Shown here: piece by piece, positions 5,140 to 19,534 of the stretch
Layout: every line of letters begins with the position of its first letter
How positions within the stretch are numbered: the stretch's first letter is position 1
Source: Acidobacteriota bacterium
Lineage (GTDB): Bacteria; Actinomycetota; Acidimicrobiia; Acidimicrobiales; RAAP-2
Assembly: GCA_018971385.1 (NCBI GenBank)
Contig: JAGXAY010000003.1
Span: 1-64,000 of the forward strand
Reading direction: 5' to 3'
DNA length: 64,000 nt
The notes under the pieces: model-generated
Seen by the model: the letters and a program-made list of their open reading frames with translations, nothing else
Databases searched by the model: none
Told to the model about the DNA's origin: nothing
Position numbers and translations under genes: made by a program

Positions 5140-5721
5140 GTGTCGAACATCTTGGTGGTAGTTCCGCTCAAATCATTTCGGACCGCCAAGCAACGCCTCC
5201 GAGCCGAGGGGGTCGCTCGTGCGGATGACTTGATGCGCGAACTCGCCGACGGCGTCATCACCGCAGTGCGTCCACGTCCGTGTCTTGTGGTCTGTGAGGA
5301 TCCGGAGGTGGCCCAGTGGTCACTCCGCCGCGGGACTGGCGTGTGGTTGCGAAACTCACTTGACCTCAACGACGCCGTGACGAGCGTACGAGAAGGGGTT
5401 CGTCATCGAGTTGACTTCGTACTGATCGTTCACGGAGACCTCCCGCACCCCGAGGGTCTCGCTGAGTTCGAACCCAGTAAAGCCGTGACGATTGTCCCCG
5501 ATCATCACGGGCGAGGCACCAACGTCCTAGGGCTACACCGAGACATTGACTTCACCTTCGAGTACGGAGAAGACTCCGCGTTGCGTCATCGAGAACAAGC
5601 TCAACGGCGCGGAGTGAGTGTCGACTGGCGAGAAGACACGACGTGGTCCTTCGACATCGACACGCTGGAGGATCTACACCGGACGCACAAGGAGGGGGGT
5701 CTTTCGACCCCCCTCCCCTAG
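5140..5721 (+). CDS. cofC: 2-phospho-L-lactate guanylyltransferase (CofC-like, F420 biosynthesis)
   Basis: VVPLKSFRTAKQRL, VLIVHGDLPHPEGL, IVPDHHGRGTNVLGL motifs. Confidence 0.85.
   Translation: MSNILVVVPLKSFRTAKQRLRAEGVARADDLMRELADGVITAVRPRPCLVVCEDPEVAQWSLRRGTGVWLRNSLDLNDAVTSVREGVRHRVDFVLIVHGDLPHPEGLAEFEPSKAVTIVPDHHGRGTNVLGLHRDIDFTFEYGEDSALRHREQAQRRGVSVDWREDTTWSFDIDTLEDLHRTHKEGGLSTPLP
5691..5716. terminator. Strong hairpin (11-bp stem, 4-nt loop) overlapping the last codons of cofC
   Basis: GGAGGGGGGTC-TTTC-GACCCCCCTCC; lies between convergent cofC and the K/A-rich gene; no T tract on the + side. Confidence 0.55.
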
Positions 5722-5736
5722 AACTGCACTGCGTCG

Positions 5737-5946
5737 TTACTTAGCTGCAGCCTTCTTGGCGACGGCCTTCTTCGCCGGAGCCTTCTTAGCGACGGCCTTC
5801 TTCGCCGGAGCCTTCTTGGCGACGGCCTTCTTCACAGCGGCCTTCTTCGCCGGAGCAGCCTTCTTCGCGGCGGCCTTCTTCGCCGGCGCGGCCTTCTTTA
5901 CTGCAGCCTTCTTGGCCGGCGCGGCCTTCTTCGCGGCTGTTGCCAC
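5737..5946 (-). CDS. Lys/Ala-repeat, histone H1-tail-like small basic protein (69 aa)
   Basis: (A/V)KKA(A/P/V)AKKA repeats throughout; GTG at 5946 preceded by AAGGAGG (5951-5957 complement). The 5997 start in the ORF track lacks comparable support. Confidence 0.7.
   Translation of the reverse strand: MATAAKKAAPAKKAAVKKAAPAKKAAAKKAAPAKKAAVKKAVAKKAPAKKAVAKKAPAKKAVAKKAAAK
5737..5946. repeat. Tandem degenerate repeats encoding AAKKAAPAKKA units
   Basis: Repeated gccttcttcgccggagc / gcgacggccttcttc blocks. Confidence 0.8.
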
Positions 5947-6019
5947 TTTCCCTCCTTGGGTATCACGATGGTCACTTACGGACCTCGTCGTCGCCACCTT
6001 GGAGACGCTGGGGAGGAAC

Positions 6020-6149
6020 CGGGTGACACCCGCGCACTCGATTCAACGACGTCCCGTTGTCACAACGGTGCGCCGTCCACTCGCAGAACGCGATCACCTA
6101 CTCCGTGACGCATCGTGTCACTGCACAATGCGTCACTTCGTGAAGTGAC
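6020..6149. repeat. Cluster of four inverted repeats upstream of the TraG/VirD4-like gene
   Basis: CGGGTG-A-CACCCG (6020-6032); CCGTTGT-C-ACAACGG (6054-6068); GTGACGCATcGTG-TCACTG-CACaATGCGTCAC (6105-6136); GTCACTTC-GT-GAAGTGAC (6132-6149). Confidence 0.75.
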
Positions 6150-6223
6150 TCTTTCAGTTCAGTGCCTCACCGATGAAGTGTCAAGCATTACCAGCATTTT
6201 TTTACGCGTGACCGTTGTGAGAT

Positions 6224-7564
6224 GTGAATGATTTCGGTGTCTATCTCGGACGTGGTCAACACGGCGACGTGACGAGTGGATCGGAACGTTCGACGTTGGT
6301 CATCGGACCAAGTCGAAGTGGCAAGACGAGCTCACTCATCATTCCGAATTTGTTGTCGACTCGTCGGGCTACCGTCGTGACGTCGACGAAGGATGATGTC
6401 GTTCGAACAATGGCCGAGTCCGCTCGTGCCGAACACACTCTGCTGTTTGATCCGTCGGGTACTGTCTCCACTCCACCGGGAGTTCGACGTGTCGGATATT
6501 CACCACTTCGCGCGGCGGCGTCGTGGGATCGTGCGGTCGTCGTAACTCGCACTCTCGTTGATTCGACTCACGGCCGGCCCTCGGACTCATCCACTCACTG
6601 GGTCGAGCGCGCGGGAGCTCTCGTTGCCCCGCTCCTTCACGCGTCATCCCTGATGAACGAGTCATTAGCTACTGCGGTGAGTCGAGTCGAACAACGTGCT
6701 GGTGACGATGCACTGGCCTTCTTGCTGGAGCGATACGGCGAACTTCATCCTTCGGTCTCCCTATTGCGCGGTGTGCTTCGCACTGACGCGCGAGAGTTAT
6801 CGGGTATCTGGTCGAGCGCAGCGGGACTCTTCGCCGGTCTACGTAGCGAAGCGGCCCGCGACAGTGCTCGCGAAGGTCTACTGGATCTCGACGCCTTCGT
6901 GTTCTCGAACCATCAGGTACACGTCGTCTCACCCAGTCACGTCCAACGGGTGAGTGCACCCCTCGTCACCGGCTTCATAGACGAGATTGTGCATCACACC
7001 TACCAGCACCATTACCGGGGCGCTCGCCTTCTCTTGGCGCTCGACGAACTCGCGAACGTTGCTCCGCTACCCCGACTCGCTTCCATCGTGTCCGAAGGTG
7101 GGGGTCAAGGAGTGGTCACACTCGCCTGCCTCCAAGATCTCTCTCAAGCGCGCGCTCGATGGGGCGAGACTGCGGAAGGCTTTCTCTCGCTCTTCGCCAC
7201 CACGGTGGTGCTACCCGGCGTCGCCGACATGAAGACTCTCGACGCTCTTCATCATTTGGCCGGTCGAGAACTCGTCGCAACACCGTCCCATCAACTCAGT
7301 TCCCGGGGTCGACCGCGAGGACGAACGGCGCAGTGGGTCGAGCGCGATCGCATGACTCGAGCCGACGTCGCCCGGGGTCGACCAGGCTTCGCCCTCGGTC
7401 TCGGAACCACCAAGGAACCGAGGTGGATTCGTCTCACGCCGGCTTACCGAGACTCTCGCTGGAGCTCGTCTCTCTCGAGAGCGACACCGCCCCTCTCCCG
7501 CATCTCGGCGCGAGAGGACGAATCGCGCGAAAGTCCCGACTCCCTCACGAGAACGCGAGACTGA
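6224..7564 (+). CDS. VirD4/TraG-like type IV coupling protein ATPase, no N-terminal TM region
   Basis: Walker A GPSRSGKTSSLIIPNLL, Walker B LLLALDELANVAPLPRL, followed by SEGGGQGVVTLACLQDLSQARARWG typical of TraG/VirD4. Confidence 0.85.
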   Translation: MNDFGVYLGRGQHGDVTSGSERSTLVIGPSRSGKTSSLIIPNLLSTRRATVVTSTKDDVVRTMAESARAEHTLLFDPSGTVSTPPGVRRVGYSPLRAAASWDRAVVVTRTLVDSTHGRPSDSSTHWVERAGALVAPLLHASSLMNESLATAVSRVEQRAGDDALAFLLERYGELHPSVSLLRGVLRTDARELSGIWSSAAGLFAGLRSEAARDSAREGLLDLDAFVFSNHQVHVVSPSHVQRVSAPLVTGFIDEIVHHTYQHHYRGARLLLALDELANVAPLPRLASIVSEGGGQGVVTLACLQDLSQARARWGETAEGFLSLFATTVVLPGVADMKTLDALHHLAGRELVATPSHQLSSRGRPRGRTAQWVERDRMTRADVARGRPGFALGLGTTKEPRWIRLTPAYRDSRWSSSLSRATPPLSRISAREDESRESPDSLTRTRD

Positions 7565-8535
7565 ATCGGGCCGCGCTCCCACGCCTCGTAGAGACTGATC
7601 GGGCGCTCGCGCAACCCGCGGTCGTGGCGAAGTTCAGGGAAGGATCTATCGACCACGGCGGCCACGTCGTCTCCCCGTATCCCGTCTCTCACCCCGTCGG
7701 CCACCGCCCGCACGATGTCACGACGAGTAGGCCAGCGGTCTCCGTAAAGGGAAGCCCGGTAGGGGTGGGGATCCACTCCGTCTCGAAGAGCGGGTGAGCG
7801 CATCTCACCGAAGAGTTCCACGGAGCGAGCCTGGTCCCGCCACCGTTCGCGAATCTCGTCGCGACGCCAGAGAACCTTCGAACCACGTTCGGACCAATGA
7901 CCGCCCCACAGAGCGAGCCAGCCCTCGTCCATTCCCTCCACGCCCTCGCGCCCCGATGGCGAGCGCCAGACCCGATAGCCCGCGTACGACTGAACGAGGG
8001 ACCGCAATGACGCCCGATAGACAGCGTCCGCGGTCAGCGCGTGAGCGAAGAGGCTCCGAGCATCGTTGATGCTCGTCTCGGCGCGTGCGACGGCCGGCAG
8101 AATGAGGTGATCGTGGAGGTGGGGCTCGCCGTGGCGATTAACGCCGTGAGTAAAACTCACGGCGTCATCCCAACTCGACGCCACCTCTTCTTCGTGTCCG
8201 GCGCGACGAGTCCGGATCACCGCCGCTCTCTCGTCCAGGTAGGACAAAGTGCTGCTCACCGCCTCCCGGTGCGCTCTCACCACATCAGGTGCTCGAGTCT
8301 CGTCGAGGGCGAGAAGGATGGAGACCGGTCGCGGTGCGGCAATGACCAGGTCGTAACCCACCACCCGTGACCGAGACGACGTCCGCAATCTTTCGTCAAG
8401 GCGGCGAAAATCGACCGACCCCCGACCGTCGGGGACCCACCACGCCGGACCCTCTCGAAGGTCCTCGAGTTCTCGCGCGGAGTCTCCGGTGAGATAGTCG
8501 AGGTTCGGATTACGCCGAACAAAGATACGAATCAT
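7444..8535 (-). CDS. TrwC/MobF-type relaxase domain protein, no helicase domain
   Basis: GYDLVIAAPRPVSILLAL...AHREAVSSTLSYLDERAAVIR plus HUH-type metal motif GEPHLHDHLILPA; 363 aa only. Confidence 0.83.
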   Translation of the reverse strand: MIRIFVRRNPNLDYLTGDSARELEDLREGPAWWVPDGRGSVDFRRLDERLRTSSRSRVVGYDLVIAAPRPVSILLALDETRAPDVVRAHREAVSSTLSYLDERAAVIRTRRAGHEEEVASSWDDAVSFTHGVNRHGEPHLHDHLILPAVARAETSINDARSLFAHALTADAVYRASLRSLVQSYAGYRVWRSPSGREGVEGMDEGWLALWGGHWSERGSKVLWRRDEIRERWRDQARSVELFGEMRSPALRDGVDPHPYRASLYGDRWPTRRDIVRAVADGVRDGIRGDDVAAVVDRSFPELRHDRGLRERPISLYEAWERGPIQSRVLVRESGLSRDSSSRAEMRERGGVALERDELQRESR

Positions 8536-8562: not shown

Positions 8563-10506
8563 CTAGAGCTGTCGGCGCCAGCGATCGGCCATCCGTCGAC
8601 CCGCGCCAGAGAGTTCGGTGGAGACCACCCGGGCTCCGGGCCCCGCCATGACCATCAGCCGGTCGAGGAAGGTCGGGTCGACGATGCGACAGCGCACGGC
8701 CACCTGCCCGTCGTCAAGAGGAACGACGTCGGCGTGGGGCAGAGACTCAAAGAGGTAACGGCGGAGGCGGTCGGCGACCACCACTACGTCCGTACCTTCG
8801 TCGACTCCCGCACTCACCCAATCCGAGACCGGATCTTCGGGAAGGTGTCCGGCGGAGGGGGAGGTCGCCAGCACGTCGCCCACGCGGTCGAGTCGAAAGG
8901 TTCTCCAGCCTTGTCGAAGGTGGCAGTACGCCCGAAAGAGGAGATGTCCATTCAGCGACTGGAGAGCGCGCGGCTCTACCGTCCGTTCCGTCATCTCGTC
9001 GGAGGACGCCGAGAGGTAAGTGATTTTGAGGGCGTGGGAGTCCGTAATCGCGTGAGCGACGAGGTCGGCGAGTCCGTCGAGTGGTTGCTCGTCCACTTCT
9101 ACGTACGCCCCCGCCACCTCCTCGATTTTCTGAACCGCGGAGTGCAGCGCCGGGTCGTGAACGAAGCGCCCGGCCTCGCGCAAGGCGACGTTCAGTTCGA
9201 AAAGATGCGCCCACGTCAGGGTGAGGGGTGCCGAGTCACCCGGCTCCCACGTGACCTGGTAGAGCGAGTCGTCGGTCTCCTCGTGATCCCAGTCATCGCA
9301 CTCCTTGATGACCCGGGCCGGGTAGACGAATCCTTCGGCGGAATCATAAATTTCGAATGTCGCGAGGCGACCCATCAGGTCTCTCACGTAGGCCGCGCTC
9401 ACGTCGAAGCGCTCGGCGAGTTCCGATATTCTCAGCCCTTCCGGGGAGTTGTGGACCGCGGAGAGCATCGCGAGAGTCTGTCCCAGGGACGACTTCTTGG
9501 CGGTCAGGGGAAAGTGAATCTCCGACACGTCGGGCGCCTCCATGGTGTTGACGTCCTTCAGCCACTCCTTTAACGCCTTCACGAGGCTCGCGGGGGACTC
9601 GAGTGTCACGCGCCCCCCACTCTCGAGAACGAATCGCAGCGCCTGGTAGTGATCGTCGAAGACCAGACCCACCTCCACTCGGCCTTTTTTGGCCGACCCC
9701 ACTTCGGCTCGCGGGTGCAGTCGCGTGATCAAGTGGGCGTAGGGAGGGGTCGTCGAGACCACGACGTCGACGGGCTTTTCACTTTTGGAGAATCCCGGTT
9801 GCCAGAGTCGAGCCCACTCACGCTCTTCCTCGCTGGCGCCAATGGGCCCTTCCCCGATGACCGGCATCGAGTGCATCCGCGAGAAGCGGTATCCCTTGAC
9901 TCGCCATCCGGTCTCGTCGTGTTCGCGCGCCACCAAGTAACTCACACCTTCGATGACTCGAATCACGAGGGGTTCGACATCGCGACGGCGTACTTTGGCC
10001 CGACTCACGTAGTCGAAACTCACGGGTGACTTCGTCTCAATGGCTCGCACGACGGGGGTGTAAAAGGCCGAGTACTGCAGTCCTCCCGGCGTGGGCGCTC
10101 CCCCGTCGAAGAGCGCGAGAGCCCCTTCCCGTCCGAAACCACAAAACCGAAGAGCGAGAGCTACGACGCGACGCTCCTCCTCCGTAAAGTCGAGTGGTGG
10201 AGCGAAGGTGTCGGCCGGATCGATGAAGTACCGGTAGAGCTGGTCGTCGCCCTGGACGCTACGCACTCGTAGACCGTTGTCGCGAATCTGGGCTTTGTCA
10301 CGTTCGAACTTCTGTCGTATCGCCACGTCGGAGCCCTGGTAGGCGGCCACTCGGCGGCCCCCACGCGGATCATCCACTTCGAGGGTGCGCACGATCTCGT
10401 CTTGAGTGAGGCTCCGGCCCGCGTCGTGAGCCTGAATGAGCAGCAACGTCAGGGACGCCACTCGCTCTCTCGCGGCGTCGGCTCGTTCGATCGAACTCTC
10501 AGTCAC
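8563..10506 (-). CDS. pafBC: Fused PafB-PafC WYL-domain transcriptional regulator
   Basis: 647 aa with two HTH+WYL halves (SYLVAREHDETGWRVKGYRFSRM; GHLLFRAYCHLRQGWRTFRLDRVGDV). Confidence 0.85.
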   Translation of the reverse strand: MTESSIERADAARERVASLTLLLIQAHDAGRSLTQDEIVRTLEVDDPRGGRRVAAYQGSDVAIRQKFERDKAQIRDNGLRVRSVQGDDQLYRYFIDPADTFAPPLDFTEEERRVVALALRFCGFGREGALALFDGGAPTPGGLQYSAFYTPVVRAIETKSPVSFDYVSRAKVRRRDVEPLVIRVIEGVSYLVAREHDETGWRVKGYRFSRMHSMPVIGEGPIGASEEEREWARLWQPGFSKSEKPVDVVVSTTPPYAHLITRLHPRAEVGSAKKGRVEVGLVFDDHYQALRFVLESGGRVTLESPASLVKALKEWLKDVNTMEAPDVSEIHFPLTAKKSSLGQTLAMLSAVHNSPEGLRISELAERFDVSAAYVRDLMGRLATFEIYDSAEGFVYPARVIKECDDWDHEETDDSLYQVTWEPGDSAPLTLTWAHLFELNVALREAGRFVHDPALHSAVQKIEEVAGAYVEVDEQPLDGLADLVAHAITDSHALKITYLSASSDEMTERTVEPRALQSLNGHLLFRAYCHLRQGWRTFRLDRVGDVLATSPSAGHLPEDPVSDWVSAGVDEGTDVVVVADRLRRYLFESLPHADVVPLDDGQVAVRCRIVDPTFLDRLMVMAGPGARVVSTELSGAGRRMADRWRRQL

Positions 10507-19321: not shown

Positions 19322-19360
19322 CCGGGGCCTCCCGATGAGTGATGGGGCTGCGGGCGCTGA

Positions 19361-19424
19361 CCTGGTCTTTGACCCCACACCCGCCTCGCCACCGATCGGG
19401 GCACCGTGCCCCGGGGTGACCAGG
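19361..19424. repeat. Nested inverted repeats upstream of secA
   Basis: Outer CCTGGTC (19361-19367)/GACCAGG (19418-19424); inner CGGGGCAC-C-GTGCCCCG (19397-19413). Confidence 0.6.
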
Positions 19425-19534
19425 ACTTACTCCTAAACCGCGCCATGCTCAGCGCTCGCGCGCCTTACGTGGGTCGTTTCGCCCGCGGCTGGCATCGACT
19501 TTCAACCACAGCCGCCCGCAGTCCCGTGTTCAGT

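Follow-up and report, generated by a model that had tools for sequence, protein, structure and literature searches.

Conjugation genes are normally plasmid- and ICE-borne. What, then, are a relaxase and a coupling ATPase doing side by side on a bacterial chromosome: are they mobile cargo, a decaying remnant, or machinery that the host has made its own? The pair lies in a 64,000-nucleotide stretch (hereafter the window) of a 2.1-Mb draft genome in 221 contigs. The initial annotation of this stretch had placed the two reading frames in a compact putative DNA-processing module, and their strands and coordinates are as it gave them. The features of the locus are as follows.

5140..5721, plus strand: CofC-like guanylyltransferase, syntenic flank (Pfam CofC E=7e-14, synteny).
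5737..5946, minus strand: Lys/Ala-rich histone H1-like protein (KA), start revised to the most likely GTG 5946 (conserved SD and start).
5949..6155, minus strand, end points approximate: putative structured leader RNA of the KA gene, including the "palindrome array" (covariation, genus-wide presence).
6156..6184, minus strand: putative sigma-A promoter of the leader, TTGACA (6184-6179), 17 nt, TGAACT (6161-6156) (conserved sequence).
6224..7564, plus strand: soluble VirD4/TraG-like coupling ATPase, 446 aa (Pfam, invariant Walker residues, predicted fold, genus-wide presence).
7444..7564, no strand assigned: tail-to-tail overlap encoding the Arg/Ser-rich C-termini of both proteins (overlap in 77/78 loci).
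7444..8535, minus strand: helicase-less MobF-like relaxase, 363 aa (Pfam TrwC, conserved catalytic residues, predicted fold, genus-wide presence).
8563..10506, minus strand: fused PafBC-like WYL regulator, sharing its strand with the relaxase and lying upstream of it (Pfam WYL).

The relaxase is, as initially described, a catalytic core: in a Pfam search of its 363 residues the TrwC domain (PF08751; E=2e-28, 100 bits against a cut-off of 25) is the sole match, no helicase domain is found, and the PHLHDH motif is present. His130, His139, His141, and His143 are kept in 77/77 sequences of the genus alignment and Tyr14 in 76/77, the latter aligning with the tyrosine motif of full-length relaxases. 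The protein scores below the NCBI MobF equivalog cut-off (NF041492, 92 bits vs 100); relatives from other families pass. Structure prediction, suggested at the outset for both proteins, was carried out with AF2 models built from genus sequences only. The relaxase model (pLDDT 87.5) has its best PDB matches in the TraI and TrwC relaxase domains, with E down to 6e-10 and TM-scores on the target mostly of 0.5-0.7. The TrwC domain, the HUH histidines, the N-terminal catalytic tyrosine, and the fold are thus common to this protein and the MOBF relaxases (TrwC of R388, TraI of F), from which it differs in having no helicase, in its fixed chromosomal position, and in the YY motif, which is YF or YL in the genus.

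The ATPase carries the NTPase domain of coupling proteins, with PF12696 and PF02534 both above cut-off (TraG-D_C E=1.9e-16; T4SS-DNA_transf E=2e-14). Its Walker A (GPSRSGKT) occupies residues 28-35, and inspection of the sequence ahead of residue 28 reveals nothing hydrophobic that could serve as a membrane anchor, in agreement with the proposal that this protein too is reduced to its core. The Walker A and B residues are invariant in the genus alignments used, and the AF2 model (pLDDT 80) best matches Cag-beta and TrwB-dN70 in the PDB (TM-score on target 0.57-0.70). Walker motifs, TraG-D_C, and the TrwB-dN70 fold are shared with the type IV coupling proteins (VirD4/TraG/TrwB); the membrane anchor is theirs alone. 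The plasmid coupling proteins nearest to the ATPase (about 30% identity, about 607 aa) have some 144 or more residues ahead of the matched part, which the ATPase lacks. Just ahead of the GTG start (about 6185-6223 of the window) stands a conserved CGAC-N3-TGT-like motif, with no obvious SD; it is possibly the promoter of a leaderless transcript.

The two genes converge, and their 3′ ends overlap by 121 bp in the window and mostly by 40-67 bp in the 77 of 78 loci that have an overlap; Arg and Ser make up about 40% of the last 25 residues in both of the C-termini that it encodes. We predict with good confidence that relaxase and ATPase are an active nickase and motor.

Whether such a pair is mobile can be judged from its distribution. 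The relatives compared are Acidimicrobiaceae/Acidimicrobiales MAGs, many with bog, palsa, or fen labels, and nearly all are drafts. Both genes occur in 61/61 genomes of the genus (60/60 sampled plus the source genome), at 49-81% identity for the ATPase and 35-69% for the relaxase. Across the window and 80 further loci, the order OppDF-RNaseHII-CofC-ATPase-relaxase-PafBC-DXS is kept as far as contigs reach, with a few rearrangements of OppC, OppDF, or RNaseHII. The relaxase frame is convergent with the ATPase in 78/78 loci that have one, and the remaining three loci end near the ATPase. Many relatives' contigs end about 300-550 bp upstream of the ATPase (e.g., G024, G033, G037, G053), breaks that are probably due to the repetitive KA gene. 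Both genes are under purifying selection, with dN/dS well below 1: among the closest pairs (Nei-Gojobori) the ATPase has values of 0.05-0.33 and the relaxase of 0.13-0.30, next to 0.11-0.15 for PafBC. Stop codons inside some ATPase matches were considered as signs of broken genes and rejected as such; they seem to be natural stops where alignments overran the C-terminus, and the listed frames are intact.

These results weigh against two of the possibilities raised initially, a minimal mobilizable element and a remnant of one. Both proteins do derive from conjugative systems, with plasmid relatives at about 30% identity. The site, however, is fixed in all genus loci examined; neither integrase (PF00589) nor resolvase (PF00239) occurs on the window's whole contig, as had been noted of integrases for the window, and no tRNA was found in the window. 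Frames and active-site residues are intact. Moreover, ATPase and relaxase pairwise distances track those of their neighbors (Spearman 0.44-0.85, vs 0.36-0.81 for the neighbors among themselves). An element or its remnant is extremely improbable here. Nor is there a case for a known defense system or a phage origin, PADLOC having returned only a weak mad8 match and PHROGs none. Further relaxases, in long frames and of the kind that mobile elements carry, turn up sporadically in some genus genomes, which would suit a pair that serves the plasmids or ICEs of these bacteria in trans as a source of relaxase and coupling activity. Yet the pair is present also in genomes that have none of these additional relaxases, and selection that has long been purifying on the host chromosome presupposes a benefit to the host; we consider this helper role decidedly unlikely.

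Domestication, the third possibility raised, is the sole reading that fits, because position is fixed, presence universal, and selection purifying. Synteny with pafBC across many species together with purifying selection had been named in advance as its expected support, and both were found, the synteny throughout the genus. The pair is very probably domesticated, vertically inherited conjugation machinery that resides on the chromosome as fixed genes.

Beyond the genus, the ATPase is matched at E <= 1e-30 in 94/298 genomes of the order, at least one of the weak matches resembling generic VirD4; outside the order, matches reach only about 25-32% identity, and we read them as generic VirD4 proteins. 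Two further families have the ATPase near-universally (25/25 genomes in 16 genera; 29/30 in 8 genera). In the ATPase tree, the genus and the families f21, f31, and f45 each form a single clade with strong support, while two or three changes are required for f16 and for the remaining f1 genera, so that not every family is clean. The tree mostly follows the families, which indicates that the ATPase is vertically inherited. The block CofC-KA-ATPase-relaxase-PafBC is whole or mostly kept in several families, and in f22, f38, and f45 its relaxase bears an AAA_30 helicase; the helicase-less relaxase is for this reason probably a derived form.

Family f32 departs from this arrangement, the two loci seen having the ATPase amid unrelated genes without an adjoining relaxase; no relaxase match was found in the complete f32 genome G091. 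The survival of the ATPase alone in this family suggests that it can work without the relaxase, for which G091 is a natural test case. That genome has retained both the soluble ATPase and a locus with VirB4 and VirD4 (L077, L236).

If the relaxase is active, where would it cut? Neither a nick site or oriT for it nor a second relaxase in the source genome was found. The palindromes at 6020-6149, proposed initially as an array and as the substrate for a nicking assay, are real and exceed chance (fold z = -4.2), and they might be the relaxase's origin of transfer, with DNA hairpins beside the nick site: inverted repeats abound in the region, and the locus has no other sizeable non-coding stretch. 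Several lines of evidence point instead to RNA. Across the genus, the roughly 280 bp that separate KA from the ATPase are strongly conserved, and their minus strand can adopt 30 pairs in 3 helices, with 93.4% of cells paired in 58 sequences vs 37-46% when slid. In this structure, derived from the same alignment as tested, which favors it somewhat, 23 pairs have changed on both sides vs 8-13 slid, above all 500 shuffles; RNAalifold missed helix 1 on a first alignment and recovered it on a deeper one. G.U cells number 248 vs 29 A.C, which fixes the minus strand and favors RNA over DNA hairpins. The palindromic stretch also spans the interval from the TTGACA promoter to the KA ribosome-binding site. 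A covariance model finds the leader in 61/61 genomes of the genus; 39 genomes from other families yield one borderline match (E=0.006) and none convincing, and the structure is absent from other families that keep the pair.

G033, G003, and G058 each have a further copy of the leader, from promoter to ribosome-binding site, ahead of another KA gene that has neither ATPase nor relaxase close to it; in one of these cases the copy is at the end of a contig.

L242:6811-6878: second leader copy.
L243:228-295: second leader copy.
L244:5311-5378: second leader copy.

Because these copies accompany other KA genes without the pair, we read the palindromic region as part of a new, structured RNA leader that belongs to the KA gene, 6020-6149 is probably the wrong DNA for a nicking assay, and an origin of transfer there is highly improbable. 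In Rfam, the leader region of the window has no match over the gathering threshold and a relative's intergenic region no significant match. For the KA mini-protein of the initial annotation, the start is most likely GTG 5946 (SD AAGGAGGG), not 5997; its histone H1-like matches are weak and below cut-offs. That the basic protein autoregulates its gene via the leader is a guess. Elsewhere in the window, a raiA structured RNA was recognized at 19348-19521 on the minus strand (Rfam RF03072, 121.5 bits, E=2.6e-29).

The initial annotation remarked that the window holds no other T4SS gene; such genes do exist, at a second chromosomal locus outside it, on a different contig from the pair.

L062 (G000 contig 71) 6983-11328: second chromosomal locus beside phoRB with reduced T4SS parts (SCO6881/VirB6-, SCO6880-, VirB4-, and VirD4-like).

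The sole other VirD4-like gene found in the genome lies here, between a glucokinase-like gene and phoRB, adjoined by a VirB4-type ATPase, an SCO6880-like protein, and an SCO6881/TrbL-like membrane protein, the SCO6880 and SCO6881 matches scoring below curated cut-offs. This VirD4 also begins almost directly with its Walker A, whereas hydrophobic segments stand at the N-terminus of the protein in an f31 relative (L238). Synteny holds in those genus loci that were retrieved, and in f28, f31, f32, and f38 the locus is found close to phoR or phoRB. Its VirB4 occurs in 56/61 genus genomes and its VirD4 in 52/61; the 5/61 without a VirB4 match, one of them 97% complete, yet keep the ATPase-relaxase pair. 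Judging by this co-conservation, we infer that the second locus is the natural candidate channel for the pair.

As most genomes retain a relaxase, coupling ATPases, and parts of a channel, we tentatively favor the view that the pair moves chromosomal DNA between cells. The relaxase would nick chromosomal DNA at a site and stay on the 5′ end; the anchor-less ATPase would pull or unwind the strand, replacing the lost helicase, and pass it to the reduced T4SS channel of the second locus (SCO6881/VirB6-like, SCO6880-like, VirB4-like, VirD4-like). Chromosomal DNA would thereby move between cells, possibly after DNA damage. To the broadest reading, that the order carries a chromosomal, vertically inherited conjugation system, complete in this genus through a dedicated relaxase, and that the cell's own DNA is thereby moved between cells, perhaps after damage, we give a probability of roughly 0.35.

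The suggestion of damage comes from the neighboring regulator. PafBC is the activator of the mycobacterial DNA-damage response (PMC6789036), and the fused PafBC of PDB 6sj9 shares its two-WYL layout with the protein adjoining the relaxase, though the match is a distant one (E=2e-17) and the locus has no PafBC motif above chance. The gap from pafBC stop to relaxase start is 25-35 bp in 74/76 loci, so relaxase and pafBC form a probable operon. Scored with a consensus, the PafBC (RecA-NDp) motif is about as frequent in the window as chance predicts (33 matches vs 38 expected); it occurs upstream of the ATPase in 5/81 cases and upstream of pafBC in 20/70 vs 55/380 random stretches, a weak excess that we do not credit.

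The same operon, together with the survival of the ATPase without relaxase in f32, makes an intracellular role the main rival: the pair would process or move chromosomal DNA within one cell, during repair, replication, or segregation, and none would pass to another cell. A precedent is the Streptomyces cmdABCDEF cluster, whose related chromosomal T4SS-like genes affect sporulation, a chromosome-segregation defect being discussed (PMC2782261). On the other side, strand export is what a coupling protein and a relaxase with intact Tyr and His are built for, and most of these genomes also conserve parts of a channel. We rate the intracellular role as possible, if doubtful. The two alternatives, bacteria adopting conjugation for their own chromosomes vs a plasmid-derived nickase and motor serving repair or segregation, are testable now.

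On either account, a bacterial genus counts a relaxase and a coupling ATPase among its core genes, with the ATPase near-universal in further families of the order, and the locus also yields what appears to be a new structured leader RNA ahead of a histone-like protein. A search of the open-access literature yielded no paper on a conserved relaxase or VirD4 in Acidimicrobiia or Acidimicrobiales. The closest actinobacterial likeness is that of the second locus to Streptomyces cmdABCDEF (SCO4126-4131) and SCO6871-6884, chromosomal T4SS-like clusters with SCO6880/SCO6881-type genes; as far as the available part of PMC2782261 goes, their role is in differentiation and a relaxase is not reported, unlike the pair described here. 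Chromosomal T4SSs of Patescibacteria are likewise clade-wide, with the coupling protein often far from virB4, as here; a relaxase is absent from most of them, however, and they are read as co-opted for other roles (PMC12102498). The archaeal Ced and Ted systems import DNA, are without a relaxase, and in Sulfolobales are induced by DNA damage (PMC9905601). Like them, the source genome has chromosomal, vertically inherited VirB4- and VirB6-like parts, found at the second locus with the below-cut-off SCO6880/SCO6881 scores given above. Where Ced/Ted are damage-induced, the present locus offers a PafBC-like neighbor, and where they have no relaxase, one is invariant in this genus. If the transfer reading is true, the system would be a bacterial counterpart of archaeal Ced, equipped with a relaxase.
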